From the NCBI GenBank assembly GCA_017557625.1, contig JAFYYG010000001.1, forward strand, positions 56,248 through 120,247: a stretch of 64,000 bases of DNA, in the 5' to 3' direction. Below, piece by piece: positions 7,749-37,852 of the stretch. This stretch comes from Muribaculaceae bacterium (GTDB lineage: Bacteria > Bacteroidota > Bacteroidia > Bacteroidales > Muribaculaceae). A program made the translations under genes and the position numbers. The notes beneath the pieces are model-generated. The model was not told the origin of the DNA. It searched no databases and saw only the letters and a program-made list of their open reading frames with translations. Within the stretch, counting starts at the first letter, position 1. Each line of letters opens with the position of its first letter.

Positions 7749-9890
7749 ATGAAAAAACTATTATCTTTATTGACTGTCATGGCAGTTGCTCTGCCATTGA
7801 TGGCAGCAGGCACTGCCAGTGATGCTTATCTGAACATCTCTAAGTATGCCACCATCAATCAGGCAGGAGCTACCGTCGATGGTATGGAGACAATCTACAA
7901 GTACACTGAAGCCCCCGGAGGCTACTGGCTCACATTATCCAACTATGGTGTGATGATGACCGACGGTACTCAGAATTGGTTTACCAACGAGATGACCGAT
8001 GCTGACAACACAGCCACCTACATCAACGCATGGACAGCAACTGACGTTTTCCAGGGTCCAAGTGCCTATTTCGGTGAAAACACTGCTTACGCGGCAAAGT
8101 TCAAGCAGCCCACAAAGTACCAGAATTTCTATGTTACTTTCTGCACTCAGGTTAAGCAGTTTGCTTACAACCGCAGCAGCTCTTCTTATTACATTTTGAA
8201 GATGAACATCTATGAGTGTACACTCAATGGAGACGGCTCTCTCAACGTGAGCTCAACCCCAATCGAGACTTTGCAGAGCTCTGCAGTTGGTGCTGAAGTG
8301 CTTGCCTCAGGTGAACTCGACCCCGATAAGATTTACAAGGTAGAGATTGCCAACTCTTATTCATACCTCTATGAGATAGCTTTCAAGACTCCTGGTCTAT
8401 TTGATGGAGAGATTACTGCTCCCGAGGCTTACGACGTTACCGACCTTGTTACTCATCCCATTTATGAAGGTTCTCAAGATATTATTTCTGAGGCCTTTAC
8501 CTGCCATTGGAGCCCATGCCAGGGTGCCAAGAGCTACACTGTGCGAGTTTACCCGTCGTCAACTGAAGATGGCCTGGTCTTCCGTGACAAATTCTCAAAT
8601 TGTACCGCCAATGACGTGTATGAAGAGGCCTTTGAAAATGACGAAGACCATCAAGTCACGCTCAACGGCCATGCCGACAACAATGGATGGGTAGGTCGCA
8701 ACGTACAAGGTGCCGATGGTGGAGTCGTGATAAATAATGACGGAACCCTTTATTTGTCGGGTACTGAAGCCGATTTCAAGATTTATAGATACGTTAAGAA
8801 ATATACAATTAAATTCAAGGCAAAAGCCTACGGTAACGACACCAATTGCAAGCTCAGGTTGGCTAAAGGCGACGGTGGGCTTATTGTAGATGTGACTGAC
8901 ACCGAGCAGTATTATACCATGGTAGTCGAGAGGGAGTTCCCCGATTATTATGCGATTTTATATCCAGGTTTAATGTTCCAAAACATGTCATATGAAGAAG
9001 GAGGTAATAATCGTGTTGTGTTGAGCGATGTCAAGGTTTATTTTGGCGATTACAGCGAGCCACAGAATGAGACCCCCAGATATATACATCCTGCATGGGA
9101 TGGCGACACAACTTTCGTATATAACATTCCTTCCGACAGCACAAGCTTCAGATTTGGTAAATATATTAATGAGGCAGGTGAAGAGCAAATTGATATGTCT
9201 ATCGGACTCATGGATTATGCCCTCTATTATTATGATGTTCAGGCAGTATATTATGATGGTCAGGAGAGCGAGTGGTCTAACCAAATTCCTATCTGCATAA
9301 AGCCCTGGCCCGAAGACCTTTTCCTTGAGGATTCTGAAGACGACGATCCTATTATTCAACCCACTCCCACCGAATTCTACTTGGTAGGTACGTTCAATGA
9401 CTGGAATCAAGCCGAGGATGGCGGCCGTCTGGTATTTACCGCCACCGACACTGAAGGCGTTTATGAGACCGTAGGCACACTTGAGGACAATGCTGAGTTC
9501 AAGGTTATAACCCCTGCTGAGGATGGCTGGACCTGGTATGGTGGTCAAGATGACAACGGTGTTGGCTATTTCTTGATTAATAGCGACCTGCTCAATGCCC
9601 CATTGGCTCTGGTTGACGGAGCAAACTTCCGCATTGAGCAAGGTGGTGAATACACCTTCCGCGTTAACGCAAGCGACTTGACCCTCACAGTTGTTCCTGT
9701 AGCTAATCCTGGCGTTTATGGTGACGTTGACGGCGATGGATACGTGACAACTGTAGATATCACATGCATCTACAACTATCTGCTCAATGGTGACGAGACC
9801 TACATCGCCACCAGCGACATCGATGGTGACGGTTTCATTACCACCACCGACATCACTATCATCTATAACATCATGCTCGGAGGAGAATAA
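7749..9890 (+). CDS. Secreted modular protein: shared module, split Fn3, SusE-like domain, dockerin
   Basis: A 713-residue secreted protein without a recognised catalytic domain. The ATG at 7749 is preferred over an upstream in-frame TTG at 7740 because the paralogue at 10112 starts at the same MKKLLSLLTVMAV position. Domains: signal peptide 1-20; the shared YLNI-KY module (about 22-205, subtype A, with CTQVKQFAYNRS and YSYLYEIAFKTP); a fibronectin III-like fold interrupted by a beta-sandwich (about 210-520); a SusE/F-like starch-binding-type domain (about 541-654, TEFYLVGTFNDWNQ); and a two-repeat dockerin-like tail (655-713, GDVDGDGYVTTVDIT, then SDIDGDGFITTTDIT). It may bind or anchor substrate beside the proteases (inference). 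Confidence 0.8.
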   Translation: MKKLLSLLTVMAVALPLMAAGTASDAYLNISKYATINQAGATVDGMETIYKYTEAPGGYWLTLSNYGVMMTDGTQNWFTNEMTDADNTATYINAWTATDVFQGPSAYFGENTAYAAKFKQPTKYQNFYVTFCTQVKQFAYNRSSSSYYILKMNIYECTLNGDGSLNVSSTPIETLQSSAVGAEVLASGELDPDKIYKVEIANSYSYLYEIAFKTPGLFDGEITAPEAYDVTDLVTHPIYEGSQDIISEAFTCHWSPCQGAKSYTVRVYPSSTEDGLVFRDKFSNCTANDVYEEAFENDEDHQVTLNGHADNNGWVGRNVQGADGGVVINNDGTLYLSGTEADFKIYRYVKKYTIKFKAKAYGNDTNCKLRLAKGDGGLIVDVTDTEQYYTMVVEREFPDYYAILYPGLMFQNMSYEEGGNNRVVLSDVKVYFGDYSEPQNETPRYIHPAWDGDTTFVYNIPSDSTSFRFGKYINEAGEEQIDMSIGLMDYALYYYDVQAVYYDGQESEWSNQIPICIKPWPEDLFLEDSEDDDPIIQPTPTEFYLVGTFNDWNQAEDGGRLVFTATDTEGVYETVGTLEDNAEFKVITPAEDGWTWYGGQDDNGVGYFLINSDLLNAPLALVDGANFRIEQGGEYTFRVNASDLTLTVVPVANPGVYGDVDGDGYVTTVDITCIYNYLLNGDETYIATSDIDGDGFITTTDITIIYNIMLGGE

Positions 9891-9917
9891 TAGATTTTTT
9901 CCATAATATATAATATT

Positions 9918-9952
9918 AAAGAGTCGCCTCATCACTTTGGGGCGGCTCTTTT
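9918..9952 (+). terminator. Rho-independent terminator
   Basis: AAAGAGTCGCC pairs with GGCGGCTCTTT (one G-U pair), followed by Ts, 28 nt after the stop codon at 9890. Confidence 0.8.
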
Positions 9953-10022
9953 GCTTTGTTTTTTGTGATTACCATAAAAATCTTTGAAAAATATTGAAAA
10001 AACACAAAAACACCAATCTTTC

Positions 10023-10053
10023 TTGCATATTCGCATAATTATTAGTACTTTTG
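10023..10053 (+). promoter_or_regulatory. Promoter of the 10112 gene (TTG-20-TACTTTTG)
   Basis: TTG at 10023-10025, 20 bp, TACTTTTG at 10046-10053, then AAGGCTTTT. Leader word AAAACAACTATAT at 10077-10089. This is close to a copy of the promoter at 7662. Confidence 0.75.
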
Positions 10054-10111
10054 AAGGCTTTTAAGAAAAATTGTATAAAACAACTATATCCACTTTTAAA
10101 TTTTACACTTA

Positions 10112-11800
10112 ATGAAAAAACTATTATCCTTATTGACTGTCATGGCGGTTGCTCTGCCATTGATGGCTGCTAATGGCGATGCTAATAGCGCCTATCTGAA
10201 TGTCGCCAAGTATGCCACCATCGACGAGGCAGGAGCTACCGTTGATGGCATGGAGTCAATCTACAAGTACACAGAGCAAGGGACAAGTTATTGGCTCACA
10301 TTATCCAACTATGGTGTGATGATGACTGATGACACACAAAACTGGTTTACCAACGAAATAGTCGAGGCCGACAACACCGACCAATACACTGGTCCATGGA
10401 TAGCCACCGACGTCTTCCAAGGTCCTGCAGCCTACTTTGGCAACAACACTGCTTATTCGGCCAAATTCAAGCTGCCCACTAAGAAACAGACATTCTATGT
10501 AACTTTCTGTACACAAGTTAAGCAGTATGCCTACAACCGCAGCATCAATTCTTACTATATCATGAAGATGGAGATCTATGAGTGCACTAAGAATGCCAAC
10601 GGTTCAATAACCGAAAGCACCACTCCGATTGAATCTTTAGTGAGCTCAACTATTGGCACCGAAGTGCTCTCCTCTAGTGAGCTTGACCCAGAAAAGGTTT
10701 ACAAGGTTGTCGTCTCTAACGCTTATTCTCATCTCTATGAGATAGCATTCAAGACTCCAGGTCTATATGATGGTGATATCGTAACTCCCGAGGCTTATGA
10801 TGTAACTGGTCTTGACGTGGAACATGTAACTATGTCTTGGAGTGCTTGCCCAGGTGCCAAGAGTTACACTGTGCGCACTTATCCATGTGATGATAATGAT
10901 GAGAATTTTAGAGGATTGTTCTATCGAGAGAGATTCACAAACTGCAACGACGGTGACACCTATCAAGATTATGTGCATTTGGATGGCTATACCGACGACC
11001 CTAGATGGTACGGCAATTGCATCAGTGGAGCCGATGGCGGTATCGTGATAGATAATAATGGTTCTGTTGTGTCTCCATTGGACGGCATCGTGATAGCACC
11101 CTATCTTAAGAAATATACCGTTAAGTTCAAGGCAAAATCCTATGGCGACGACACTGATTGCAAGCTCACACTCACCAGTGGAAACAATTCTCAGACATTT
11201 GACATTTCTAGCTCCGAGAAAGAATATACCTATGTGTTCGAAAGGGCATATCCAGACTATTATTCTACCTTATATTCGTTGTATATATTCCAGAATCCTA
11301 GTTATGAGGGAGAACATCGTGTAGTATTGACTAATTTCAAGCTTTATTATGGCGATTTCGGTGAGCAACAACAAGGACCTTCCGCCAAATATGTGGTACC
11401 CGGGTGGAGTGGTGACACTACTTTCGTTAGCAACATTCCCGAAACCACCTTCTCTTTCGGCACTGCGCTTACCGACATTTCTCACTATAACGGCTATGCC
11501 TATTGGATTTATGATGTTAAATCGGTATATTATGGCGGCCAGGAAAGCGAATGGTCCAATAAAATCTACTACTCTCTCTCTCCATGGCCTGAGTTCCTTG
11601 AGGATGACGACGAGCCCGTTGTGGGCGTTACTGGCGACGTTGACGGCGACGGACACGTGACAACAGTAGATATCACATGCATCTACAACTATCTGCTCAA
11701 CGGTGACGAGACCTACCTCGCCACCAGCGACGTGGATGGCGACGGTTTCATCACCACAACCGACATCACAGTAATCTACAATATCATGCTGGGAAATTAA
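10112..11800 (+). CDS. Secreted modular protein: shared module, split Fn3, dockerin
   Basis: A 562-residue paralogue of the preceding protein, sharing its signal peptide (MKKLLSLLTVMAVALPLMA), the subtype A module (about 23-205; CTQVKQYAYNRS, YSHLYEIAFKTP) and the split fibronectin III/beta-sandwich region. It lacks the SusE-like domain and goes directly to the two-repeat dockerin-like tail (505-562, GDVDGDGHVTTVDITCIYNY). No catalytic motif is visible. Its promoter and leader nearly duplicate those of the 7749 gene, so the pair probably arose by tandem duplication followed by loss or gain of the SusE-like domain. Confidence 0.8.
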   Translation: MKKLLSLLTVMAVALPLMAANGDANSAYLNVAKYATIDEAGATVDGMESIYKYTEQGTSYWLTLSNYGVMMTDDTQNWFTNEIVEADNTDQYTGPWIATDVFQGPAAYFGNNTAYSAKFKLPTKKQTFYVTFCTQVKQYAYNRSINSYYIMKMEIYECTKNANGSITESTTPIESLVSSTIGTEVLSSSELDPEKVYKVVVSNAYSHLYEIAFKTPGLYDGDIVTPEAYDVTGLDVEHVTMSWSACPGAKSYTVRTYPCDDNDENFRGLFYRERFTNCNDGDTYQDYVHLDGYTDDPRWYGNCISGADGGIVIDNNGSVVSPLDGIVIAPYLKKYTVKFKAKSYGDDTDCKLTLTSGNNSQTFDISSSEKEYTYVFERAYPDYYSTLYSLYIFQNPSYEGEHRVVLTNFKLYYGDFGEQQQGPSAKYVVPGWSGDTTFVSNIPETTFSFGTALTDISHYNGYAYWIYDVKSVYYGGQESEWSNKIYYSLSPWPEFLEDDDEPVVGVTGDVDGDGHVTTVDITCIYNYLLNGDETYLATSDVDGDGFITTTDITVIYNIMLGN

Positions 11801-12021: not shown

Positions 12022-15000
12022 ATGAGAAAACTTTTATCATTACTCACTCTTGCCATGGTTGCCGTGCAGCTTATGGCAGCGCCTGTTGACGTGTCAACAG
12101 CGAAGACAAAGGCCGAGCAGTACCTTGCGCAAAAGGTGTATGCCGGCAACAGATCCATGACACCTGGAGCCACCAATGCCACCCTCATCAAGACCGAGAT
12201 GGGTGACAAAGCTCAGACTCCAGTCTATTACATCTTCAACACCGCGACAACCTTTGTGATTGTGTCGGGTGACGACCGTGCCGAGGAAATCCTCGCCTAC
12301 GGTGACAAACCTCTCTTGCTTGAGCGCATCCCTAAGAACATGGAAGCATGGCTCAACACCTACAAGGAGCAGCTCGACTGGCTGCTCACGCACCCCGAGG
12401 CAAAAGTTGAGAAACCCACCACCTTCAAGGCAGGGGGACTTGTTAATACTGTCACGGGTCCATTGATGACAGCCCTCTGGGACCAGACTGCACCCTACAA
12501 TAATCAGTGTAAGTTTACATATAGTGGTAGCACCTATACTTGCTTAACTGGTTGTCCCGCCACTTCGGCATCGATGGTGCTCTACTATTGGAAGTACCCC
12601 ATTGAGCAGGTTGGTCCACTTCCCGCTTACACTTCCACTCTCGACATTGGCGGTGGTTACTGGGGCAACCAAGTGACCTTTACTTATCCCTCCCTTCCAG
12701 CTACTACTTTTGACTGGGACAACATGAAAGACAAATATGGCACCTGGTATGATGAGTATGGCGCCACTCATAACGAGCCCTACACCACAGAGCAGGGCAC
12801 AGCAGTAGCTACGCTGATGCGTTATGTGGGTCAAGCCGAGCACATGATGTACGGTGTTAATGGTAGCGGAATCTACACTACCGATGCGCAGAACGTTGCC
12901 GACATGTTCATCGAGTTTGGCTATGACGAGTCAACTACTCAGCTGGTTCTTAAGTCAAGCTACAGCGAGACCAACTGGGCAAATCTTCTGCAAACCGAGA
13001 TAGCCGAAGGTCGTCCCGTTGTCTATATGGCTGTTGACTATAGCGCTGGCGGCCACGCTTTCAATGTTGACGGTTACAACTCAAGCACCAATAAATATCA
13101 TGTGAACTTCGGTTGGAGTGGTGACGGTAACAACTGGTGCGTTATGAATGCCTTCACAGATGGCAGTAACTACACCTTCAACAGCGACCAGCAGATGGTT
13201 ATCGGCATCCAACCTCCTATGGGAATGATAAAGGCCAATCCTTCGGAGGTTGCCTTCAACGGCTTTGCTGGTGAGACCTATACTCAGGTTGTGAAGGTTC
13301 AGGCCCGCAACTTAGAGAGCAATGTGGACATCGCTCTCAGCGGCGACAATGTTTACAGCATCAGTCACACCACCCTCACTCCCGCTCAGGCGGCAAATGG
13401 TGTTGATGTTACTGTGACTTACGCTCCTGAAGCTGCCGGCAACACTTCGGCAACCATCACACTCTCATGCGCCGATGAGGACGTGGAGAACGTTACCGTG
13501 CCCATCACCGGCGTAGCAGCTCCACGAGTTCCTACACTCTTAGTTAATCCTGGCGCACTCGATTTCAGTGCAACACTTGATAGAACAGTGACTAAGACCA
13601 TCGAACTCACTGGTGCATTCCTGACCAATGACATTACTGTTACCCTCAACGACACTCATGGCGTGTTCACTGTCGTGCCTGCCTCAATACCACAAAGCAG
13701 TACTGATGTCAACACTCCTATCACAGTTGCGGTATCTTTCAGCTCAGCAGTAGAGGGCACTTTCAATGGCTCAATCACCTTTGCTAGCGAGGGTGCCGAG
13801 AGCAAAACGGTCAACCTCACTGCTATAGCTCGTGATGGTGGCACGGCTGCCGACCCATTCCTCAATATCGCCAATTATGAGACAATCAACGAGGCTGGAG
13901 CTGCTGTGACTGGTATGACTTCGATTTACAAATACACAGAATACGATGACCAGGAGTGCGCTTGGCTCACTGTTTCCAATTATGGTGCTTTGAAGGCCGA
14001 TGCCACTCAAAACTGGTTTGAATCGCAATCACTGAGTCAGTACAGCAACTCTTGGAATGCCACTGACATATTCCCTGGCCAGAACGCTTACTTTGGCAGC
14101 AGCCAAGCTTATTCGGTTTATGGCAGCAGCTATCAGTCGTTCTATGTGACAAATTGCACACAAGTCAAGGCTTTAGTTAAGGGTGGCAGTTACAGCAGTT
14201 CTTCAGCAACCTTGTCAATCTATGAGTGCACACTCAATGCTAATGGAAGTATTACTCCTTCAAACACTGCTGTTGACACACAGTCAGGAAGCAACGACGT
14301 TATCACTTCGGCAGCCCTTGATGAATCAAAGATTTATTTGGTGAAGTTGACTGGTGGCGGTTCTTATCCCGACCTCTTGGAGATTGGCTTCCAGACTCCG
14401 CTCAACCAATTTAATGCTCCGGTTGCTACTCCCGCTACCGACATCACTGAAAACAGCTTCGTGGCAAACTGGACACCTTGCGAGGGTACTGACAGCTACA
14501 TCTTGCGAGTTGTGCCCAAGAGCTATGACATCCTTACTGAGACTTTCCAGAAATTTACCAAGACTGGCGCTCAGGACATCGGCTTACAGCTTGATAACTA
14601 CATGGACAATGCCGGATGGACTGGATATAGGGTATATTCCGCTATTGGAGGCGCACGTCTGGGTACTGGCTCTTCAACAGGCCATATCACTTCTCCAGGA
14701 CTCGTCCTCGGCGAGAATAAGGTTACTGTGAAGTTCAAGGCTAAAGCCCTCAACAACGATACCGACTGCGAGCTCAATGTTTCTTGCGGCGATGCTAGCG
14801 AGACAGTGACTGTTGCCGATAACAACGAGCAATCGTTCACCGTAGTACTTGACTGCAACGTTGGCGCCAACCAGAGTATCAAGTTTGAGAATGTGGTAAA
14901 TGGCAAGCGCGTGGTTATCACCAGTATTCACATTCAAGATGGTGACCGCAGTAATGCTACCCTCAACGCTATCGACGAGGACGGCATCACAATTACTGGC

Positions 15001-15315
15001 ATCACAACCAACAGCTACAAGGTTACCGACCTGCTGCCAGCTACAACCTACATCTACGACGTGAAGGCTGTTTATGGCGCTAAGCAAACCAAGTGGTCTA
15101 ACTTTATCATGGCAACCACTCTTGCTGGTGTATCAGTTTATGGCGACGTGGACGGCGATGGCGAGGTAACCACTGTTGATATCACCTGCATCTACAACTA
15201 CCTGCTCAACGGTGACGAGACTTATATCGACACCTGCGATGTGGACGGTGACGGACAAATTACCACCGTTGATATTACCATTCTCTACAATATCCTGCTG
15301 GGAAACAAAAAATAG
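12022..15315 (+). CDS. Secreted C10 (streptopain-type) cysteine protease, dockerin-tagged
   Basis: A 1097-residue protein. After a signal peptide (1-19) come a Spi-type propeptide and a C10 peptidase domain: catalytic Cys178 lies in TGCPATSASMVLYYWKYP, His345 in AGGHAFNVDGY, and the following NFGWSGDGN supplies the Trp/Asn environment seen in SpeB-type enzymes. Then follow two ASH/MSP-like immunoglobulin-type domains (about 398-605), the shared module (about 608-794, subtype B, CTQVKALVKGG and GGGSYPDLLEIGFQTP), a split fibronectin III with a beta-sandwich insert (about 800-1030) and a dockerin-like tail (about 1038-1097). It should be secreted as a zymogen and degrade protein outside the cell. 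A paralogue lies at 25454. Confidence 0.9.
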   Translation: MRKLLSLLTLAMVAVQLMAAPVDVSTAKTKAEQYLAQKVYAGNRSMTPGATNATLIKTEMGDKAQTPVYYIFNTATTFVIVSGDDRAEEILAYGDKPLLLERIPKNMEAWLNTYKEQLDWLLTHPEAKVEKPTTFKAGGLVNTVTGPLMTALWDQTAPYNNQCKFTYSGSTYTCLTGCPATSASMVLYYWKYPIEQVGPLPAYTSTLDIGGGYWGNQVTFTYPSLPATTFDWDNMKDKYGTWYDEYGATHNEPYTTEQGTAVATLMRYVGQAEHMMYGVNGSGIYTTDAQNVADMFIEFGYDESTTQLVLKSSYSETNWANLLQTEIAEGRPVVYMAVDYSAGGHAFNVDGYNSSTNKYHVNFGWSGDGNNWCVMNAFTDGSNYTFNSDQQMVIGIQPPMGMIKANPSEVAFNGFAGETYTQVVKVQARNLESNVDIALSGDNVYSISHTTLTPAQAANGVDVTVTYAPEAAGNTSATITLSCADEDVENVTVPITGVAAPRVPTLLVNPGALDFSATLDRTVTKTIELTGAFLTNDITVTLNDTHGVFTVVPASIPQSSTDVNTPITVAVSFSSAVEGTFNGSITFASEGAESKTVNLTAIARDGGTAADPFLNIANYETINEAGAAVTGMTSIYKYTEYDDQECAWLTVSNYGALKADATQNWFESQSLSQYSNSWNATDIFPGQNAYFGSSQAYSVYGSSYQSFYVTNCTQVKALVKGGSYSSSSATLSIYECTLNANGSITPSNTAVDTQSGSNDVITSAALDESKIYLVKLTGGGSYPDLLEIGFQTPLNQFNAPVATPATDITENSFVANWTPCEGTDSYILRVVPKSYDILTETFQKFTKTGAQDIGLQLDNYMDNAGWTGYRVYSAIGGARLGTGSSTGHITSPGLVLGENKVTVKFKAKALNNDTDCELNVSCGDASETVTVADNNEQSFTVVLDCNVGANQSIKFENVVNGKRVVITSIHIQDGDRSNATLNAIDEDGITITGITTNSYKVTDLLPATTYIYDVKAVYGAKQTKWSNFIMATTLAGVSVYGDVDGDGEVTTVDITCIYNYLLNGDETYIDTCDVDGDGQITTVDITILYNILLGNKK

Positions 15316-16796: not shown

Positions 16797-19700
16797 ATGA
16801 GGAAGTTTTTTCTGCTGATAATGATTCTTTGCGTGTCGCTGGCAGTGATGGCTGGCGACAAGCTCACGGCTCCCACCAAGGCGTTTCTCGCCGAGCGAAT
16901 GGGGGGCACTCAAGACGACAACTCCACGCTTGTTAAGCCTAAAGCAATTAATGGAGTGCAATGTGTGGACTGCTTCATCTTCTTGAAAGGGGCTTCGGTC
17001 GCCGAATTGGAGAAAGCGGGGGTTACTGTCACGGGCAAGTACAGCACCTTTGTGACGGCACAGGTGCCTATCGACAAGATTGAGGAAGTGGCGCGACTCG
17101 GTTCGGTCACTCAAGTGGCAATCGCCCGCACCGCGCGGCATTTCACCGATGAGGCATGTGGCGTGGTAAATGCCGACAAGGTATGGGACGGCACGAACAA
17201 CGGCCTGCCCGAGAGCCTCACCGGCAAAGACGTGGTGCTTGGCATCATCGACGAGGGCATTGAGTTCAATCACCGCGCCTTTCTCGACGATGACGGTAAT
17301 TCGCGCGTGAAAGCCATCTATAAACCCAACGAAACAAATGCTGGCACTGGAGGCACTAAAATCTCTGTTGATGGCGTGGAACTGCCAGGCTATGCCTACA
17401 CCACTGCAGAGGCTATAGCAGCGCAAACTACCGACAACACCAATGCCGACCACGGCACGCACACCACAGGATGCGCCGGAGCATCGAAGGTGGGCGTATA
17501 TTCGGGCATGGCACCTGAGTGCGACTTGGTGCTGTGCGGTTTAGGCAACGACTTAACTGATGTCGCCATTGTCAATTCGGCGAATTTCATCGCCGACTAT
17601 GCCCAGAGCGTAGGTAAGCCATGTGTCATCAGCATTAGTTTGGGCAGCGACATCGGGGCTCACGACGGCACGAGCGGCATCTGCCTCGGCTTTGACGAAG
17701 TGGCCGAGAAGTATGGCGCGGTAATCCTCCTCGCGGCAGGCAATGAGGCCGACGCTACCGGTTATGCTACCAAGACTTTAGAAAGCGACGAAGACGCTAT
17801 GGCGGTGGTGCACACACCTGTTACCAGCACTGCACTCTATGGTAGCTGCGACATCTGGAACAGCACCAGCGATGAACTGAAAGTGGAGGTGGTGGTCTTG
17901 AATCCAAGTGGTGCCGTGAAATACCGCAGCATTCCCATGAATAACGGCACTATCAATGCTTCGACAATGGGTCTTGACGGCACAAGCATCACAATCAGCG
18001 GTGGCGTGGACCAGAACAACAACCGCTACAATATCTACATCTACAGCAAAGTTTATACCTACGCGACATCTGGCACAGGCAACAACCGTGTGGCTTACAT
18101 CATCACCGGCAAAGGCGGGAATGTGATAAACGTCTTCACTGATAACTATGGCACCGAGTTGGCATCCACTGGTGTAAGCATTAGTGGTGTCCCAATCTCG
18201 CTGGGCACTTCCGAAGGCTCTTTCAGCGATGACGTGACGGCGAGCAAAGTCATCAGCGTAGGGGCAATGGCGTCGCGCTCCACGTCAAACGGCTCCTACA
18301 GCCAGGGCGACATCGCCTATTTCTCAAGCTATGGCACCGACTTCAACGGCGTTGACCATCCGTTTATCACCGCGCCAGGGCACTATGTGATTGCCCCAAT
18401 CAATAGATATTACAAGCAGAGTGGCGTTTATTCGGTGACCTATAACGGCAAAACCGACTATTGGGACCAGAAGAGCGGCACCTCGATGGCTACACCCATC
18501 ACCGCTGGCGTGGTGGCACTGCTGCTGCAAGCTGATCCAACCCTCACAGTCGAGGAGGTGAAGGACGCACTGAAGAACACCGCCACCGCCTACGTCAACC
18601 CGCAAAGCCCGCCCAAGCAGCGTGGCAACGGCATTGTGAATGCTCTTGATGCCGCTCAGTATGTAGTTGTCAACAGCGAGAAGCCCAAAATGTTTGTCAC
18701 TCCCGCTTCGCTCGATTTTGAGGTGTGGGCGGGTGATACCTGCACAAGCGTTATCAACGTGAAGGGCAAGAACCTTGTTGGCGATGTCACAATAACCTCA
18801 AGCGACTCCAATTTCTTTGTCACTCCAAGCACAATCACTGCTGCTCAAGCCGAGGAGGGGGTTGACGTTACCGTCAGCTATGCTCCTGCCACTGCTGGTA
18901 GCCATCAGGCCACTATCACCGTTGCTACCGATAGTGTTGAGAGCAAGATTGTGGAAGTCAACGGCTTGGCTAAGGAGAAAGTTCCTGTCTTGAGCATCAC
19001 CCCAGAACTATTGAACTTCGCTACGAGTCTGACTACGAGCTCCACTAAGTACATTGAGGTCTCTGGAATGTTTATAAACGATGATGTGACCATCACTCTT
19101 GACGATGAGAACGGCGTGTTCTCTGTTTCGCCTTTGGTTATCCCTGCCGGCAGCATCACCGAGAACGAGCCGGTGATGGTGGAGGTCACTTTCACCCCAT
19201 CGGGCGAGGGCAACTTCAAGGGCGCTGTCACACTCAACTGCCCAGGCGATGAAAGCAAGGTTGTGATGCTTAACGCCTCGGCAAGCGACTATGCCACAGC
19301 AAGCAGCTCGTTCCTAGACATCGCCAAGTATGTGACTATCGACGAGGCGGGATGGAACACCGACGATATTCCCAACCTGTACCAGTATAAAGACTATCCC
19401 GAGGAAGAATGTGGCTGGCTCACAGTCTCCAATTATGGAGTGGTAATGGCCGATGCCACACAAAACTGGTTCACCAACTCGATTATCAAGACCTACGAGA
19501 CCACTTGGAGCAGTAATGACGTGTTCCTCGGCAGTGAGAGCTACTTTGGCAACAACACCAGCTATGCCGCCAATTTCAACGGCAACTACCAGCGCTTCTA
19601 TGTCACCAACTGCTCGCAGGTGAAGCAGTATGGCTACCACCGCAACGTGAGCAACTACCCATTGAAGATGAACATCTACGAGTGCACCGTCAACGATGAC

Positions 19701-20777: not shown

Positions 20778-20840
20778 TAGATTGAGCTCATGCCGCTCAC
20801 TGTGGCACCAGCATTATCAATCACTTTGGCGCAATAAGCA

Positions 20841-29021: not shown

Positions 29022-32000
29022 TTATTTCACCATAACTTTCTTGTTGCCTACGATATAGACGCCGCTTGGCAGGTTGCGGGTTGCCTCGCCAGCCTTCACA
29101 TTGCGGCGGATGAGCTGACCTTGAGCGTTGTAAACGTTCACAATCTCATTGTAGCTGTCAAGACCAACGGTGCCAATAGCTGTTGGAGCATCGGGCATGC
29201 GCAGTGCGTGGCCAGTGTAGTTCTGGAAGTCATATTCATAGTCAAGCAGCCCTCTCCAAGGCTCCTTGAGAGTGATAGCGCAGCGCACTGTGTAGCGCTT
29301 GCCATTCTGCAAGGTGTTGACATTAGCGCCCCAGGTGTAGTCGAGAGTCAAGCTCTGACCCTGAAGACCACCATTAGAACCCTCATAAGCGCGGAGAGCG
29401 CCTTCGCTTGCGTTCCAGTAGCCAGTTACGTCAACAACCTGATTGCTTACCAATGTGAATGGGTCGGCGAGGTTGATGGCCTCAATGTAGTTCACATAAT
29501 CAGGACTTAATGGCACTAATTCCTCAGGTTGTTCAGTAATGGTGAGCACTGGGTTGAGCTCAATGCCGCTGAGTGTGCCCTTGAGGGTTCCACCCTTGAT
29601 TAGAAGGCTTTCAACAAATACATTGAACACATCATCATCGGCAGCGGCAACACGAATCCAATTGCCATCGCCGTCGGTGAGGAACGCATAGTTCTCAACG
29701 TCGGCAACCTCAACCTTTATGAGGTCGTTGCTAACAGTGTATTCTTGGCCGTTAACACCATTCTCAAGGATGTAGGCGAGAGTTGTCTCCTGCTCCTCGG
29801 GAAGTGGAGTCTGGAAGGCTATCTCATAGAGATAAGAGTAGTCGTTATAAATCTCTACCATGTAAATCTTATCAGCATCGAGAGCTTCCGAAGTAAGGAT
29901 TTCGGTCTGACTGTACACAGAGCTCATTTTTGCGTCGATTGCTGTGGTGCCAACAGTTAGGCTGCCATCGGCGTTCTCGGTGCACTCAAATATGCGCATA
30001 TACAGAGGATAAGACGAGCTGCGGTTGTAAGCAAACTGCTTAACCTGAGTACAGTTGGTCACATAGAAGCGCTGATAGAGACCGTTCCAGTCGCTAGCAT
30101 AGCTCTGAGAAGAGCCAAAGTAATAGTCATCACCCACGAATACATCGGTAGCATTCCATGTTTGAGCGGCAGTGGTAGTCAACGAGTTAGCAATCCACTC
30201 TTGAGCTGCATCGGTCTTCTGGGCACCATAGTTTGAAACGGTGAGCCATCCGCAATCATCAGTCTCAGTGTACTTGTAAATAGTGGACATACCGCTTACT
30301 GATGCACCAGCGACATCGATAGTGGCATACTTGGCGATGTTGAGATACTTGTCGCTTGCAGTGCCGCCAGTGTTGCAACAACCAGTGAGATTGACTGTTG
30401 TAGTGAGATCTCCGCTGGTGAGAGTAATAGTGCCCTCATAGTTGTCTTCCTCGTCGCTCTCGAAGGTCACTGTAAGTTGTGTGCCAGCCTCGGCGTTGGT
30501 CTTGCTGATGGTGGTTGCCGAAACTGCGAATACGTTATTTGGATCGTTCAATGTCACAGTCACGTCACCAGGGAGCATCTTGCCACGAACGTTGATGGTG
30601 GCAGTTCCAGTCTCGCCAGGTGCCGTGGAGATTGTCACCTCAGTTGGGTCGGCAATAATCATTGGCTGGTTGAGCTCGGTCTTGAAGCCAATCTCCAGCA
30701 GGTCGGGGTAGCTGCCGCCACCCGCCAACTGTATCTTATAGATTTTAGCAGGATCAAGGCTAGCCGATGTTATCACGCCATTGGTGCTTTGCTTAGAGTC
30801 GGTTGCAGTAGTTGCGGCGGTAAGAGTGCCGTCGGCATTAAGTGTGCACTCATAGATCGACAATGTTGCACTTGAGCTAGAATAGCTGCTTCCCTTCACG
30901 TATGCCTTAGCCTGGACGCAATTGGTCACGTAGAAAGTTTGAGTGCCGCTGCCATAAATCGAAAAACTGTTGTTAGTGCCGAAATAAGCGTCATCACCGA
31001 GGAAGATGTCGGTTGCAGTCCAAGTGTTGTTGTACTGCGTCAAATCTGTGGTTTCATACCAGTTCTGGTCAGCATCGGCCTGCAGAGCACCATAGTTACA
31101 AAGTGTGAGCCAAGCGCCATCGTCTTTCATGGTATAATTGTAGATAGTGCTCATTCCGCTCACGGTAGCGCCAGCTTCATCAATAGTCTCATAATTGGCG
31201 ATATTGAGGAACGGGTCGGTGGCCACGCCCAAGTCGTTGGCCTGAGCGATGAGCTGAACGGTCTTGGTCTCGGCACCATTGCTGGTGAGGGTGAGCGAAC
31301 CAGTGAAGTCGCCCTCAACATCTGAGTTGAATGTCACGTTCACTGCAACTGGAGTGTCAGCACCTGTGCTATTCTTTGAAATAGTGGTTGGCGAAACGCT
31401 GAACACGCCATTCTGGTCGTTGAGAGTAACGGTGATGTCGTTGGTAAGGAACAGACCGGTCACGTTCACTGTCTTGGTCATTGGAGTTGACAGCTTAGCA
31501 CTGAACTCTAAGGTCTCGGCATCAACAGTGATCGTCGGCACTCTGGGTTGAGCAACACCAGTGATGGGCACGGTCACGGTCTCGGCATCGGCACTGGTGA
31601 GAGTGAGGGTTGCATTGGTTGTACCAGCTGCGGTGGGAGCATATGTCACGGTCACGTCAACACCCGTGTAAGCATCGCTGGCACTGATGGTGGTTGGACT
31701 CACGCTGTAAACGTTAGAGCCGCTCTTGGCGATGCTGATGTTGCCAGTGAGGTTGTAACCCTTCACGTTAAGAGTCTGGGTATAAGTCTCGCCCTGATAG
31801 CCCTCAAAGTTGAGTTCAGTGGGTTTTGCTACGATTGTTGGACTTTGGTTATTGAGGATATACTCGATACCTGCCACCGCGTTGATGATACCGTGACCAC
31901 GCTGCAAAGCGGGGCTGGAGGGATTACTATATGCGGTCGCTGTATTGGCAATCACATCCTTCACACGGTCCACGTCGAGTGTCGGGTCGGCCTGCAAGAA

Positions 32001-33656
32001 GAGAACAACCACACCTGCAGTGATAGGAGTAGCCATTGATGTACCACTCATCTGCCCCCATTTATAGGTGGTGCCGTTATAGGTTGTTGACCAAGATGAT
32101 GATTGTCCTGAATCATATCCGTTGATCGAAGAAATCACATAGTGGCCGGGAGCGGTGATGAAGGGCTGGTTGATGCCGTTGCAGTCAACACCATAGCTCG
32201 AGAAATAGGCGACATCATTAGTGCTGTAAGGACTATTAGAAGTGTTTCGAGAACACATGGCGCCCACGCTGATAGCCTTGGTGCAAGTCATGTCATCGCA
32301 CATCGAGTTCTCGTAGGTGCCAGGAGTAAGGGTGTATCCGCTCACACTGCCAGAAGTGCCAAGCTCGCTGTAATAGCAGTCGGTGTAAACGTGAACAGTG
32401 TTTCCTGCACTACCCTTGATGATATAGTAAGCAGACGAATTGCTGCTACTAATATACAGATTGTAGCGTCCATTGTATTGATCCACGCCACCTTGAACGG
32501 TAACGTTGTTATAAGATCCATTGCTCATCCAGTCGCTCTGAGAGTTGTTGACAACCACTTTAACCTGTAGCTGGTCACCAGTGCTATTCCAGATGTCACA
32601 ATCACCACCATAATAAGTGTAGTTGACGTTGTGACGCACCATCATGTAGTCGTTGTCGCTCGAGAGAGTCTTGACAGCTGCGCCAGTGATGTCGGCCTCG
32701 TTGCCTGCGGCAAGCAGGATAACTGCTCCATATTGCTCTGCCACATCTTGATAAGCGCGGCAGATACTGCTGGTACCGTCGTGAGGTCCTGTGTCACTAC
32801 CCAAGCTGATGCTGATAACGCAAGGCTTGCCAAGCACGTTCTTGGCATAGTTGCCAATATACTTAGCCGAACTAACGATAGCAGTCTCAGTAAGACTATA
32901 ACCACAACCGGCAAGAATTATGTCGGCCTCGGGTGCCATACCAGAATAGTCGCCCACGTGTGAGCCAGCGGCGCAGCCCGAGGTGTGAGTGCCATGGCTC
33001 TCGCTGCTGTCATCGCAGGTGAGGTTGCCTATCTGGCTCGCGGTGGTGTATTGATAGCCCATGAGCTGAACGCCGTCAACAGTAGCTTTAGTGCCGCCGT
33101 TAGCGCTTGTAGCGTTAGGCATATACACCGCCTTCACACGGGTGTTGCCGTTGTCATCAAGGAATGCACGGTGATTGAATTGGATGCCATCATCGATGAT
33201 ACCAAGAACAACACCTTGTCCAGTGAAGCCCTGGGGAAGACCATAGTTGGTGCCGTCCCACGCCTTGTCGGCGTTGACTACTCCTTTGGCCACATCGGTA
33301 AGAAGGCGTGCGTTACGCGCAATACCCACTTGCTTCACATCTTTCAGACGAGCTACGTCTTCAAGCTTGTTTACAGGAATACTGGCAGTAACAAAACCTT
33401 TGAACTTGCCAGTAATTTTCACGCCCATTCTCTCCAGGTCGGAGAAAGATGAGCCATCCAGAGAAATGAAGCATTCCACATACTCCATTCCATCCACATC
33501 CTTGGGCATGGCAAGTGTTGATTTGCCATCTGTCGGCTGTGGCACGGCGTCCGCGCGTTGCTGCAGGAACACCCGCGTTGGTGCGCTTAGTTTATCGTTG
33601 GCAAAAGCTGCCAGCGATAAAGTAACCGCCATCAATAATAGGAAGAATTTTCTCAT
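29022..33656 (-). CDS. Secreted S8 subtilisin-like protease with two shared modules and T9SS sorting domain
   Basis: The largest protein here, 1544 residues. Signal peptide 1-20, propeptide to about 125, S8 domain with Asp155 (LGIIDDGIQF), His221 (ESHGTHTSGCAAGS) and Ser540 (SGTSMATPITAG). Two immunoglobulin-like domains (about 604-812); module copy 1 (about 814-992, subtype B, GGGSYPDLLEIGFKTE); a third immunoglobulin-like domain (about 997-1090); module copy 2 (about 1095-1282, subtype A, CTQVKQFAYNRS); an OB-fold-like region (about 1290-1455); and a type A T9SS sorting domain (NVYNAQGQLIRRNV, EATRNLPSGVYIVGNKKVMV). It has no split fibronectin III and no dockerin. The end from about 1290 closely matches that of the M6 protease. 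Confidence 0.92.
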   Translation of the reverse strand: MRKFFLLLMAVTLSLAAFANDKLSAPTRVFLQQRADAVPQPTDGKSTLAMPKDVDGMEYVECFISLDGSSFSDLERMGVKITGKFKGFVTASIPVNKLEDVARLKDVKQVGIARNARLLTDVAKGVVNADKAWDGTNYGLPQGFTGQGVVLGIIDDGIQFNHRAFLDDNGNTRVKAVYMPNATSANGGTKATVDGVQLMGYQYTTASQIGNLTCDDSSESHGTHTSGCAAGSHVGDYSGMAPEADIILAGCGYSLTETAIVSSAKYIGNYAKNVLGKPCVISISLGSDTGPHDGTSSICRAYQDVAEQYGAVILLAAGNEADITGAAVKTLSSDNDYMMVRHNVNYTYYGGDCDIWNSTGDQLQVKVVVNNSQSDWMSNGSYNNVTVQGGVDQYNGRYNLYISSSNSSAYYIIKGSAGNTVHVYTDCYYSELGTSGSVSGYTLTPGTYENSMCDDMTCTKAISVGAMCSRNTSNSPYSTNDVAYFSSYGVDCNGINQPFITAPGHYVISSINGYDSGQSSSWSTTYNGTTYKWGQMSGTSMATPITAGVVVLFLQADPTLDVDRVKDVIANTATAYSNPSSPALQRGHGIINAVAGIEYILNNQSPTIVAKPTELNFEGYQGETYTQTLNVKGYNLTGNISIAKSGSNVYSVSPTTISASDAYTGVDVTVTYAPTAAGTTNATLTLTSADAETVTVPITGVAQPRVPTITVDAETLEFSAKLSTPMTKTVNVTGLFLTNDITVTLNDQNGVFSVSPTTISKNSTGADTPVAVNVTFNSDVEGDFTGSLTLTSNGAETKTVQLIAQANDLGVATDPFLNIANYETIDEAGATVSGMSTIYNYTMKDDGAWLTLCNYGALQADADQNWYETTDLTQYNNTWTATDIFLGDDAYFGTNNSFSIYGSGTQTFYVTNCVQAKAYVKGSSYSSSSATLSIYECTLNADGTLTAATTATDSKQSTNGVITSASLDPAKIYKIQLAGGGSYPDLLEIGFKTELNQPMIIADPTEVTISTAPGETGTATINVRGKMLPGDVTVTLNDPNNVFAVSATTISKTNAEAGTQLTVTFESDEEDNYEGTITLTSGDLTTTVNLTGCCNTGGTASDKYLNIAKYATIDVAGASVSGMSTIYKYTETDDCGWLTVSNYGAQKTDAAQEWIANSLTTTAAQTWNATDVFVGDDYYFGSSQSYASDWNGLYQRFYVTNCTQVKQFAYNRSSSYPLYMRIFECTENADGSLTVGTTAIDAKMSSVYSQTEILTSEALDADKIYMVEIYNDYSYLYEIAFQTPLPEEQETTLAYILENGVNGQEYTVSNDLIKVEVADVENYAFLTDGDGNWIRVAAADDDVFNVFVESLLIKGGTLKGTLSGIELNPVLTITEQPEELVPLSPDYVNYIEAINLADPFTLVSNQVVDVTGYWNASEGALRAYEGSNGGLQGQSLTLDYTWGANVNTLQNGKRYTVRCAITLKEPWRGLLDYEYDFQNYTGHALRMPDAPTAIGTVGLDSYNEIVNVYNAQGQLIRRNVKAGEATRNLPSGVYIVGNKKVMVK

Positions 33657-33897: not shown

Positions 33898-33928
33898 AAA
33901 GATGCGCCCCCTGAAAGAGACGCATCTT
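33898..33928 (-). terminator. Terminator of the dockerin-type S8 gene
   Basis: AAGATGCG and CGCATCTT form a stem with a 14-nt loop about 25 nt past the stop at 33953; on the minus strand TTTG follows. Confidence 0.65.
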
Positions 33929-33952
33929 GAATATCAAAAAGTTGATTAGGCT

Positions 33953-36900
33953 TTATTTAGCTCCCAGTAGAATGTTGTAGATTACAGTAATATCGGCGGT
34001 GGTGATGAAGCCGTCGCCGTCCACGTCGCTGGTGGCGAGATAGGTCTCGTCGCCGTTGAGCAGGTAGTTGTATAGACAGGTGATGTCAACAGTTGTCACT
34101 TCGCCGTCACAGTTCACATCGCCAACGATGCCACCATTAAGTGTAGTAACCATAATCCTGTTGGACCACTTGGTCTCCTTAGTGCCTATCACCGCCTTCA
34201 CGTCGTAGAAGTAGGTGGTGGCAGGATCAAGGTTAACTACCTTGTAGCTGGTACCTGTGATGCCAGGGATGGTGATGCCGTCAAAATCAATTGACCTGAG
34301 GGCTTTGGCGTGGTCGCCGTCCATGATGTGAATACTTGTGATAATCACGCGCTTGCCACCGGCAGTATTCTCAAATGTAATATTCTGTCCAGCAGCAGCG
34401 TTGCAGTCGAGAACCACAGTGAATGTTTCCTCTGTGTTATTGGCAACTGTAACAGACTGGCTTGCGTTTCCGCAAGAGACCTTAAAACCGCAGTTAGTAT
34501 CGTTGTTGAAGGTTTTTGCCTTGAACTGAACAGTAACCTTGCCACCGCTGGTTGTCAAGTCGAGACCCGGAGAAGTGAGAGTGCCTGCCGAAGAACCAGT
34601 GCCTAAGCGCGCCCCACCAATCGCCTCATAGATCTTAGAGCCAGTCCAGCCGGCGTTATCCATATACTCATCGAGTTTAGAGCTGATATCCTGTGCGCCA
34701 GCCTTAGTGAACTTAGAGAAACTCTCGGTGAGGATGTCATAGTTCTTAGGAAGGATGCGCAGGATATAGCTGTCGGCACCCTCAACGGCATTCCAGTTTG
34801 CCACAAAACTGCTGGCAGTAATATCGGTTGCTGCTGTTGCCACAGGACCTGGACCACAGAGCTCGGCCTTGAAGCCAATCTCCAGCAGGTCGGGGTAGCT
34901 GCCGCCACCCGCCAGTTGCACCTTATAAATCTTAGAGGCATCAAGCTCCGCCGAAGTGATAACTCCGTCACTGCCTTGCTGTGTGCTGGTTGCAGTGTTT
35001 GCGGGGTTGAGAGTGCCATCGGCATTGAGGCTGCACTCATAAATCGACAACGTGGCATTTGTACTGGAGTAACCGCCACCCTTAACGTAGGCCTTAACCT
35101 GGGTGCAACCGGTCACGTAGAACGTCTGACTGCCGCTTCCATAAATCGAATATGCGTTATTTGAGCCAAAATAAGCGGCATCGCCTAAGAACACGTCGGT
35201 CGCATTCCATTCGTTGTTATATTGCGACAGCGAGTTGGTCTCATACCAGTTCTGGGTGTCGTCGGCCTTTAATGCGCCATAGCAGGAAAGGGTGAGCCAT
35301 GCGCATTCATCGGCCGCATACTCGGTGTATTTGTAGATAGTGCTCATTCCGCTCACTGTGGCTCCAACCTCGTCGATAGTCTCATACTTAGCAAGGTCGA
35401 GATATGGGTCGCTTGCCATACCCTTGTCGGTGGCTTTAGCGGTGAGTTGAACAGTCTTGGTCACGGCACCATTGCTGGTGAGGGTGAGCGAGCCGGTAAA
35501 GTCGCCCTCCACATCGGAGTTGAATGTCACATTAACCGCAACGGGAGTGTCGATGCCAGTGTTGTCTTTTGAGATTGTAGTTGGCGAAACAGAGAACACA
35601 TTATTCTGGTCGTTGAGGGTAACAGTGATGTCGTTAGTAAGGAACAGACCGTTCACTTTCACTGTTCTTGTGGCTGGTGTTGACAGCTTAGCGTTAAAGC
35701 TGAGAGCCTCGGAGTCGGTGAGGATAGTTGGAACCCTGGGCTGTGCCACACCAGTGATGGTCACTGTCTGAGTCTCGGCCTCTGGGTTGGTGAGGGTAAG
35801 GGTCGCTGTGGTCTCGCCGGCTGCTGTGGGAGCGTATGTGATGGTAACGTCAACTCCATTGTAAGCATCCTCAGCACTGATGGTGGTGTGACTCACGCTA
35901 TAGGCGGCATTACCGCTCTTAGTGATGGTGATTGGGCCATTGAGGTTATATCCCTTAACCTTTACAACTTGTGTATAGGTCTCGCCGGCATATCCCTCAA
36001 AGGTCACTGCATCGGGCTTAGCGATGATGGTTGGTCCCTGGTGTTGAAGAATATACTCAATACCATCTAATGCGTTGATGATGCCATGCCCACGCGCCAT
36101 AACGGGGCTGGTGGAATTAAGGGGATAAGCTGTAGCGGTCTCAGCAATAACCTCTTTCACGCGATCTACGTCAAGTGTCGGGTCGGCCTGTAAATACAGC
36201 GCAACCACGCCAGCGGCAGTAGGAGTCGCCATCGAGGTGCCGCTCATCTGTCCCCAGTTGTAGGTTTGGCCATTATAAGTCATCGACCAAGAAGTAGATT
36301 GATATGTGTCATAACCATTTACCGACGAGATGACATAGTGACCAGGTGCGGTAATGAATGGCTGATTCACGCCATTGCAGTCAACTCCATAACTCGAGAA
36401 GTAAGCGACATCGCCTTGACCATAGCCATCGCTTGAACGCGATGCTTGGGCACCCACGCTGATTACTTTGGGAGAGGTCATGTCGTCGCACATCGAGCCC
36501 TCATAGGTGCCAGGAGTGATGGTGTAGCCACTCACTGTGCCCGAAGAAGAGGAAAGTGTGCTGTACCAGCAGTCGGTAAAGACATTTATCGTGTTGCCGG
36601 CACTACCTTTAATGACGTATGTTGCCGATGACGCACTGCTCTCAATATACAGGTTATAACGGTTGTTGTAAGCGTCCACGCCACCCGAAACAGTGACGCT
36701 GTTAAATGTTCCGCTGGTCATCCAGTCGCTCTGAGAACCATTTACAATCACCTTAATCTGAAGTTCGTCGCTGGTGCTGTTCCAGATGTCACAAGAACCT
36801 GAAGCAGACCCCCACCAACTTGAAACAGTGTTAGTAACTGCCATATAGTCGTCATCACTGGCAAGGGTCTTTTTAGCATGGCCAATGATATCGGCCTCGT

Positions 36901-37852
36901 TGCCTGCGGCAAGAAGAATCACAGCACCATAGGTGTTTGCAACCTCGGTATAGGCGCGACTGGTGATGCTCGTGCCATCGTGAGGACCGATGTCACTACC
37001 CAAACTGATGCTGATCACACAAGGCTTGCCAAGTTGCTGAGCGTACCAGCCGATATACTTTGCCGAACTAACTATTGCGTTTTCGGTCAAAGACGAGCCG
37101 CAGCCGCAAAGGATAAGATCGGCCTCGGGAGCCATACCGGCATAGTTGCCCACGTGTGAGCCAGCGGCGCAACCCGAGGTGTGGGTGCCGTGGCTCTCGC
37201 TGCTGTCGTCGCAGGTGAGGACACCAATCTGGCTGGGGGTGGTATATTGATACCCCATCATCTGCACACCGTCGATGACGGGTTTGGTGCCGCCGTTGGC
37301 ACTGCTGGCGTTAGGCAGATACACCGCCTTGACACGAGAGTTGCCGTTGTCATCAAGGAACGCACGGTGGTTGAACTGGATACCGTCGTCGATGAGACCA
37401 ACTACCACACCTTGCCCGGTGTAGCCTTGTGGCAGGCCATAGTTGGTTCCATCCCACGCCTTGTCGGCATTGACGATACCTTTTGCCACATCGGTGAGCA
37501 GTCGGGCATTGCGGGCGATGCCCACTTGCTTCACACCTTTCATTCGGGCAACAGCCTCAATTTTGTTGACAGGAATACTGACAGTTACAAAGTCGCTGAA
37601 CTTGCCAGTGACTTTCACTCCGTTAGCCTCAAGTTCGGCTATTGAAACCCCATTAAGGGAGATGAAGCATTCCACATACTCCACCCCGTTCACGGTCTTT
37701 GGCGAGGCAAGAATTGTCTTGCCATCGGGTGCCTGGGGAGCTGCATTGGCACGCTGCTGCAGGAACACCTTTGTCGGGGCGCTCAGCTTGTCTTGGGCCA
37801 TCATGCCCAGCGACACGCTAATCGCCATCAGGATTAGAATAAATTTTCTCAT
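33953..37852 (-). CDS. Secreted S8 subtilisin-like protease, dockerin-tagged
   Basis: A 1299-residue paralogue of the 29022 protein. Signal peptide 1-20; propeptide; S8 domain with Asp155 (VGLIDDGIQF), His221 (ESHGTHTSGCAAGS) and Ser540 (SGTSMATPTAAG). Two immunoglobulin-like domains (about 604-810), one shared module (about 812-990, subtype B, CTQVKAYVKGGG and GGGSYPDLLEIGFKAE), a split fibronectin III with beta-sandwich insert (about 995-1235) and a two-repeat dockerin-like tail (about 1243-1299, GDVNCDGEVTTVDIT). The first about 990 residues track the neighbouring T9SS-tagged subtilase closely, but the two diverge completely afterwards, so the tail has been exchanged. Confidence 0.92.
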   Translation of the reverse strand: MRKFILILMAISVSLGMMAQDKLSAPTKVFLQQRANAAPQAPDGKTILASPKTVNGVEYVECFISLNGVSIAELEANGVKVTGKFSDFVTVSIPVNKIEAVARMKGVKQVGIARNARLLTDVAKGIVNADKAWDGTNYGLPQGYTGQGVVVGLIDDGIQFNHRAFLDDNGNSRVKAVYLPNASSANGGTKPVIDGVQMMGYQYTTPSQIGVLTCDDSSESHGTHTSGCAAGSHVGNYAGMAPEADLILCGCGSSLTENAIVSSAKYIGWYAQQLGKPCVISISLGSDIGPHDGTSITSRAYTEVANTYGAVILLAAGNEADIIGHAKKTLASDDDYMAVTNTVSSWWGSASGSCDIWNSTSDELQIKVIVNGSQSDWMTSGTFNSVTVSGGVDAYNNRYNLYIESSASSATYVIKGSAGNTINVFTDCWYSTLSSSSGTVSGYTITPGTYEGSMCDDMTSPKVISVGAQASRSSDGYGQGDVAYFSSYGVDCNGVNQPFITAPGHYVISSVNGYDTYQSTSWSMTYNGQTYNWGQMSGTSMATPTAAGVVALYLQADPTLDVDRVKEVIAETATAYPLNSTSPVMARGHGIINALDGIEYILQHQGPTIIAKPDAVTFEGYAGETYTQVVKVKGYNLNGPITITKSGNAAYSVSHTTISAEDAYNGVDVTITYAPTAAGETTATLTLTNPEAETQTVTITGVAQPRVPTILTDSEALSFNAKLSTPATRTVKVNGLFLTNDITVTLNDQNNVFSVSPTTISKDNTGIDTPVAVNVTFNSDVEGDFTGSLTLTSNGAVTKTVQLTAKATDKGMASDPYLDLAKYETIDEVGATVSGMSTIYKYTEYAADECAWLTLSCYGALKADDTQNWYETNSLSQYNNEWNATDVFLGDAAYFGSNNAYSIYGSGSQTFYVTGCTQVKAYVKGGGYSSTNATLSIYECSLNADGTLNPANTATSTQQGSDGVITSAELDASKIYKVQLAGGGSYPDLLEIGFKAELCGPGPVATAATDITASSFVANWNAVEGADSYILRILPKNYDILTESFSKFTKAGAQDISSKLDEYMDNAGWTGSKIYEAIGGARLGTGSSAGTLTSPGLDLTTSGGKVTVQFKAKTFNNDTNCGFKVSCGNASQSVTVANNTEETFTVVLDCNAAAGQNITFENTAGGKRVIITSIHIMDGDHAKALRSIDFDGITIPGITGTSYKVVNLDPATTYFYDVKAVIGTKETKWSNRIMVTTLNGGIVGDVNCDGEVTTVDITCLYNYLLNGDETYLATSDVDGDGFITTADITVIYNILLGAK

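Follow-up and report, generated by a model that had tools for sequence, protein, structure and literature searches.

A module shared by eight proteins of a protease cluster

We analysed a window of 64,000 nucleotides from a Muribaculaceae bacterium (assembly GCA_017557625.1, contig JAFYYG010000001.1, positions 56,248 to 120,247; coordinates below are those of the window), in which eight proteins encoded between 7749 and 37852 carry nine copies of one module of about 190 residues (178-189 residues from motif start to end), in two subtypes, A and B. Our main result is that the core of this module (residues ~59-190) has a history separate from that of the flanks in its hosts. The hosts, named here by their first coordinate, are two C10, three S8, and one M6 peptidase together with two short proteins. 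On the forward strand, subtype A copies are N-terminal in the short protein 7749 (7803..8396), which has no recognised catalytic domain, and in the second short protein, 10112 (10169..10762); these are followed by a subtype B copy (13834..14400) in the C10 peptidase 12022-15315 and a subtype A copy (19287..19862) in the S8 peptidase 16797-20777. The reverse strand encodes the M6 peptidase 20907-25208 with a subtype B copy at 22428..22997 (divergent core ~22428-22823), the C10 peptidase 25454-28762 with a subtype A copy at 26390..26983 (divergent core ~26390-26809), the S8 peptidase 29022-33656 with two copies (copy 1, subtype B, 30675..31235; copy 2, subtype A, 29802..30371), and the S8 peptidase 33953-37852 with a subtype B copy at 34862..35428.

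The original prediction, made from the letters alone, had counted nine copies in eight proteins and named an FGE-like lipoprotein as the sole exception in this region, and we found both statements to be correct. When the stop-to-stop stretches of 30 or more amino acids (aa) in the six frames of the window, 1046 in total, were searched with models built from the other eight copies, every copy was recovered in turn (E 2.6e-72 to 2.9e-84), and the reversed stretches gave zero matches. The lipoprotein at 15892 has no copy. A search of the genome itself (3.05 Mb, 76 contigs, 88% complete; E 1e-3) returned nine matches, all within this cluster. The alignment of the nine copies has 207 columns, of which 39 are invariant, and eight columns are fixed differently between the five A and the four B copies; the other 125 five/four splits yield at most one such column, and the subtype assignment is correct for all nine copies. 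Pairwise identity is 43-54% between A and B, 66-73% within B, and 49-72% within A. The motifs written for the module hold overall, with minor misses in single copies: the start reads YLNV in 10112, YLDL in 33953, and YYVT in 25454; IY.YTE is missing from 16797 and reads IYNYTM in 29022 copy 1; QVKA is QAKA in the subtype B copies of 20907 and 29022 (copy 1); and QNWL and VYECT occur in 20907, QEWI and IFECT in 29022 copy 2. An 18-residue relic of the N-terminal part (20774..20827, reverse strand; independent E value 4.2e-4 with the nine-copy model), which the original prediction does not mention, lies mostly in the gap that separates two converging genes and shares its last 4 bases with the end of 16797-20777; we read it as a trace of gene loss or rearrangement.

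The module had not been recognised from its sequence, and profile searches for an already described domain likewise found nothing significant. Scans of 80 module members gave best E values of 0.011 in Pfam (25 of 28 families listed) and 0.014 in NCBIfam, in both cases scattered over unrelated families, two modules tried against PHROGs had no match, and the best PDB sequence match to the 80-row profile had an E of 0.5. PDB sequence matches to tectonin, beta-xylosidase, and leucine dehydrogenase, at E 0.5 or worse, were taken as chance. In text searches of the literature we recognised no publication as describing the module, though an unnamed sequence is not findable by text.

AlphaFold gave confident models of both subtypes, with a mean predicted local distance difference test score (pLDDT) of 95.7 and a predicted template modelling score (pTM) of 0.92 for A (the copy of 16797), and a mean pLDDT of 97.0 and a pTM of 0.93 for B (the copy of 12022); as the two models drew on the same 80 sequences in different order, they are not independent. 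Both contain a helix at 17-20, strands at 32-37 and 42-48, a helix at 49-55, strands at 62-64 and ~69-71, a helix at 84-87, and strands from 93 onward. Judged by this order of secondary-structure elements, A and B are one fold. We describe the module as a compact, beta-rich accessory domain of secreted peptidases, with no named family in the libraries searched, and it probably folds alone. Because of the strand order alone, the stretches near 93-98, 119-125, and 179-182 could lie together at one domain end and form a possible site. A disulfide between Cys109 and Cys133 was considered and dropped for want of covariation (both cysteines in 65 of 80 members, one alone in 15, neither in 0), and no homology was found between the module and the adjacent jelly-like region (profile comparison probability 0.9%) or the cohesin-like repeats described below.

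Separate histories of core and flanks

Beyond the window we drew on 68 named loci (from the best 80 of 113 confirmed stretches; designated by L numbers), which come from Bacteroidales metagenome-assembled genomes, many of them titled rumen or omasum. Together with the window these relatives yielded 198 matches to the module, spread over 164 distinct reading frames. Of 153 domain matches, 132 modules remained once identical rows and rows below 160, then 180, residues were dropped. A quick tree of these modules separated subtype A (70 rows, support 94), subtype B (42 rows, support 95), and a third, long group (20 rows, support 97), and the three groups require two changes on it, the minimum possible. 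The earlier statement that subtype does not follow protease class extends beyond the window: C10 hosts have 29 A and 19 B modules, S8 hosts 14 A, 15 B, and 17 long, and M6 hosts 5 A, 4 B, and 2 long, both long M6 rows coming from L022, whose M6 label comes from a 92-residue partial match and in which Pfam listed no peptidase. Proteins carry one to three copies. In the 17 multi-module proteins the partner copy was the nearest row in none (best rank 10), and 12 of the 17 mix groups, the others being four B-B and one long-long. Of the 17 assemblies with three or more A/B modules in the loci examined, 15 contain both subtypes. The residues by which A and B differ cluster in segments 61-70, 91-100, 111-130, 151-160, and 171-180, with 111-120 and 171-180 conserved within each subtype.

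Exchange of the module among proteases, proposed originally, is well supported, in part by peptidases that are nearly identical in their catalytic domains and differ in module subtype. Catalytic and module identities are 95% and 53% for the M6 pair L054/L061, 90% and 56% for the S8 pair L036/33953, 90% and 52% for the C10 pair L043/L063, and 86% and 50% for the C10 pair L048/25454. Same-subtype M6 controls gave 86% and 92% (L052/L061), 96% and 97% (L053/L054), and 87% and 72% (L053/window), so the core is not simply fast-evolving, though it is not constant either. Where catalytic identity is 65% or more, the first modules belong to different subtypes in 9 of 15 M6, 30 of 71 S8, and 237 of 470 C10 pairs.

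The same discordance appears along single genes. The window's M6 peptidase 20907 and C10 peptidase 25454 are 83% and 86% identical in their first and second immunoglobulin (Ig)-like repeats (Ig1 and Ig2) and 74% in the jelly-like region, against 49% in the module. Compared as DNA in 20-residue blocks, the two genes are 68-88% identical outside the module (first block 53%) and 72-78% over the first ~52 module residues, against 46-65% in the core, with a return to 80% at the last strand; the drop thus starts between module residues ~53 and 72 and stops at the last strand. Five further pairs were profiled for breakpoints, and in two of them, L054/L061 and L036/33953, identity in the core drops below that of the flanks on either side.

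Core and flank trees disagree as well. Quick trees of 64 single-module A/B peptidases (multi-module and long-group proteins left out) place subtype B in one clade for the core DNA, with support 100. A B clade is rejected by the approximately unbiased (AU) test for Ig2, the repeat before the module (p-AU 8.7e-100; 4 changes forced by starred branches), and for the 45 codons after the module (p-AU 1.2e-68; 4 changes forced). Among pairs with an Ig2 identity of at least 75%, core identity is 80.5% within subtypes (150 pairs) and 41.3% between them (68 pairs), compared with 84.8% and 77.4% for the N-terminal part (N-part).

Several observations count against exchange in its simplest form. Catalytic and module identity are correlated over all pairs (M6 0.55, S8 0.66, C10 0.39), and peptidase class, though it has changed repeatedly, is clustered on the module tree (20 changes over 105 C10, S8, and M6 rows vs a shuffled mean of 42.6). 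Among the profiled pairs, the Ig repeats of L043/L063 (50-65%) are as low as the core (52-64%), with no contrast, L048/25454 is also low in part of the jelly-like region, and 20907/L052 shows a weaker contrast, its jelly-like region not being alignable. The N-part tree does not reject a B clade (p-AU 0.287, 1 change forced). The nearest neighbour is of the same subtype in 64 of 64 cases for the core, 63 of 64 for the N-part, 57 of 64 for Ig2, and 56 of 64 for the stretch that follows the module; with Ig2 neighbours sharing subtype this often, movement of the modules is not free, and because N-part neighbours almost always share it, the first ~55 residues may often travel with the core. Two further observations count against the binding reading given below: all 22 rows classed as short are subtype A, counting L043_3_1823, a contig-cut protein mis-sorted among them, and the separating segments 61-70, 91-100, and 151-160 are variable inside A. 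Rapid switching via long identical repeats was rejected, because the listing, which covers 20 of the 24 direct families and 25 of the 28 inverted pairs, shows no long near-identical repeats; the longest inverted pairs listed, 161-198 nt at 74-90% identity, lie in dockerin regions. One family, two subtypes and a longer group, the host range, and the discordant histories of core and flanks are supported computationally.

Host proteins, their tails, and their distribution

Catalytic Pfam domains scored above cut-off in six of the eight window hosts, and in the two short proteins dockerin alone did so. The C10 domains (PF01640) lie at 12478..13137 (forward strand, E 7.9e-43) and 27704..28303 (reverse, E 2.5e-39), the S8 domains (PF00082) at 17223..18632 (forward, E 3.6e-31), 31917..33221 (reverse, E 1.4e-29), and 36116..36622 (reverse, best stretch, E 8.5e-26), and the M6 domain (PF05547) at 24093..24734 (reverse, E 4.8e-19; TIGR03296 175.7 bits). 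The motifs that we take to be catalytic (HEFSH in M6, HGTH and GTSMA in S8, the Cys and His motifs in C10) look intact in the translations, and N-terminal signal-like stretches suggest that the hosts are secreted. Both C10 hosts also have an I69 inhibitor propeptide. The module usually follows Ig-like repeats and precedes a fibronectin type III (fn3)-like stretch or the C-terminal tail; in the short hosts it is joined to a jelly-like region and a dockerin.

Six of the eight hosts end in a dockerin (PF00404, 42.4-47.3 bits, cut-off 22.9), located at 9717..9872 in 7749, at 11633-11782, 15139-15300, and 20610-20768 on the forward strand, and at 25469-25630 and 33965-34123 on the reverse strand. 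The tails of 20907 and 29022 are 86% identical to each other and resemble sorting domains of the type IX secretion system (T9SS); in the NCBIfam scan, made for 20907, the type A domain (TIGR04183) reached 14.3 bits (E 0.031), below its 23-bit cut-off. Across the 164 host frames, 95 have a dockerin tail, 12 a T9SS-like tail, and 57 neither (some cut); the two tails never occur together (0 of 164, from L010-L119 and the window). By class, assigned outside the window mostly by similarity to the window's own domains, these frames comprise 66 C10, 40 S8, and 10 M6 hosts, 25 in which the module is N-terminal, and 23 left unclassified, many of these cut at the stretch boundary. Pfam scans of five frames outside the window confirmed S8 in L066, L120, and L075 and found dockerin only in the short L010 protein, the fifth being L022. 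We saw no glycoside hydrolase host, Pfam having covered those five host frames outside the window.

Within its own genus the module was found in 36 of 101 genomes; of the 48 better genomes, 17 have it. G411 (one of these 17; E 6.5e-4) and G850 (E 5.7e-4), both counted in the 36, have weak matches only, which are probably chance; of nine longer stretches read, eight contain an S8 host and the ninth, from G411, lacks the module. A family sample spanning 30 genera gave 7 of 149 genomes, all of the own genus and G411 included, and the order and phylum samples gave 2 of 295 and 1 of 395, the own genome counted in both. In a second family of the order, 5 of 15 genomes have one match apiece, with S8 hosts in the three read. 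By the origin of its relatives, the window genome is itself probably from the rumen.

The genome encodes at least 133 dockerin places (150 of 225 candidates scored) and, by a profile of the repeats, 12 cohesin-like places. Six of these are in one 914-aa protein with a C-terminal dockerin (L130:3881-6625, contig G000:C35), in which PF00963 matches three stretches above cut-off (E 2.6e-15); its neighbour (L130:2142-3860) bears a T9SS-like tail in addition to a dockerin and a single cohesin-like repeat. PF00963 is found in 46 of the 101 genomes of the genus at E 1e-3, in 37 of them above cut-off. A cohesin/dockerin system in this member of the Bacteroidales is possible, and since the recognised host tails are mostly dockerins, the hosts that bear them may be gathered on the genome-encoded cohesin-like proteins. 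Against docking, no match of the repeat profile to a solved scaffoldin cohesin was better than E 0.11, and an unrelated chain ranked ahead of these at 0.01. Dockerins and cohesins are reported for rumen Bacteroidetes bins in passages of PMC6071333, and those of PMC7480376 call the role of dockerins in polysaccharide utilization loci of rumen Bacteroidetes not defined; a passage of PMC5831590 reports none in its genome, and dockerin-bearing peptidase-like modules are reported for cellulosome bacteria in PMC3573020. The parts are thus already known, and their use with these peptidases is putative.

The proteases had also been described as co-expressed. Among the 220-nt upstream stretches of the nine genes of the cluster, 8 of 36 pairs are similar beyond shuffles, including 7749/10112, 12022/20907, 20907/25454, and 29022/33953, and no such similarity is shared by 16797 or 15892. 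TA..TTTG, presumably the Bacteroidetes -7 box, is upstream of all nine genes except 16797. These similarities make co-expression plausible, which is as far as the earlier description can be carried. Other genes of the window include the module-free FGE-sulfatase-like lipoprotein within the cluster (15892-16698), a Cthe_2159-type carbohydrate-binding protein with an N-terminal dockerin (38569-40077, reverse strand), and two adjacent GHL10-type glycosyl hydrolase-like proteins, each with a C-terminal dockerin (40397-46647).

A candidate module for aiming secreted peptidases

The original prediction proposed a binding module, possibly with a lectin-like or adhesion fold. We likewise infer binding, and an interchangeable binding module with two main specificities, A and B, that aims secreted peptidases is a reading to which we give roughly even chances. 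Most likely, the module would bind a substrate or surface and so aim the peptidase attached to it, and the short companions would be enzyme-free carriers of this binder. A and B would represent two specificities, presumably for different ligands. Recombination in the conserved flanks would replace the core, either by itself or together with the more conserved first ~55 residues, and such a replacement would change the aim of a peptidase and leave its catalytic domain untouched.

Accessory binding modules of secreted enzymes are well known in the form of carbohydrate-binding modules and of the adhesin domains of proteases such as gingipains. Like these, the module is a beta-rich domain that follows the catalytic domain, is repeated, and is found on more than one enzyme; unlike these, it lacks a significant Pfam or NCBIfam match, and in each of three unrelated families peptidases that are nearly identical have different cores. 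The jelly-like region of 12022 (residues 837-983) matches the T9SS-dependent surface endonuclease AS87_RS02955 family (NF052644; E 4.4e-9) at 36.1 bits, far under the cut-off of 260, and the module itself matches this family in 1 of 80 members (E 0.064).

The module might instead be a spacer or stability domain that holds the peptidase away from its tail, with A and B as neutral variants carried along by recombination. It does sit among Ig-like repeats and fn3-like stretches, and the flanks recombine as well. A spacer accords poorly, however, with short proteins made up of module, jelly-like region, and dockerin, and both subtypes in 15 of 17 assemblies would be unexpected of neutral variants, although chance could produce this given the many copies. 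Complementary binding fits better because of the short hosts, the mixed tandem copies, and this co-occurrence, and we regard a spacer as unlikely. Antigenic or phage-receptor variation, in which the exposed core is swapped for escape from recognition rather than for substrate, seems to us more doubtful still. A core that differs between conserved flanks would be expected of it, as would the strong variability of segments 61-70, 91-100, and 151-160 in subtype A, but the separating segments 111-120 and 171-180 are conserved in both subtypes, the 132 rows fall into just three groups, and the repeats listed include no long near-identical ones for fast switching. There is slightly less to be said for a regulator, that is, an inhibitor or chaperone of the attached peptidase, or one acting in trans where a short protein carries it: all recognised hosts in the loci read are peptidases or short proteins without one, yet a single module serves three unrelated catalytic folds, an inhibitor propeptide (I69) is already present on both window C10 hosts, and tandem copies belong to different groups. 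That A and B are old paralogues in place, with flanks homogenised by gene conversion and a core that never moved, is very improbable, for although the nearly equal Ig repeats of the window's M6 and C10 peptidases do need flank conversion or transfer, the M6 pair L054/L061, so alike in catalytic domain and different in module subtype, is explained most simply by core replacement.

The interchangeable binding module can be carried further, to a combinatorial targeting of extracellular proteolysis in rumen Bacteroidales, in which an undescribed domain family, its core a swappable specificity cassette in three peptidase families and in enzyme-free adaptors, would be gathered by dockerins on multi-cohesin proteins as a protease counterpart of the cellulosome. 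Such an arrangement would resemble cellulosome cohesin/dockerin systems in the dockerin tails of six of the eight window hosts and the cohesin-like places of the same genome, and would differ from them in belonging to Bacteroidales, in having peptidases as hosts, and in a docking that is here predicted from sequence. We consider this extended scheme improbable as a whole. The window and its relatives point to a domain family that has no entry in the libraries searched, and they offer a natural experiment in which nearly the same peptidase occurs with either of two modules in related bacteria. The aiming of secreted proteases thereby becomes directly testable, which bears on the breakdown of protein in the rumen.

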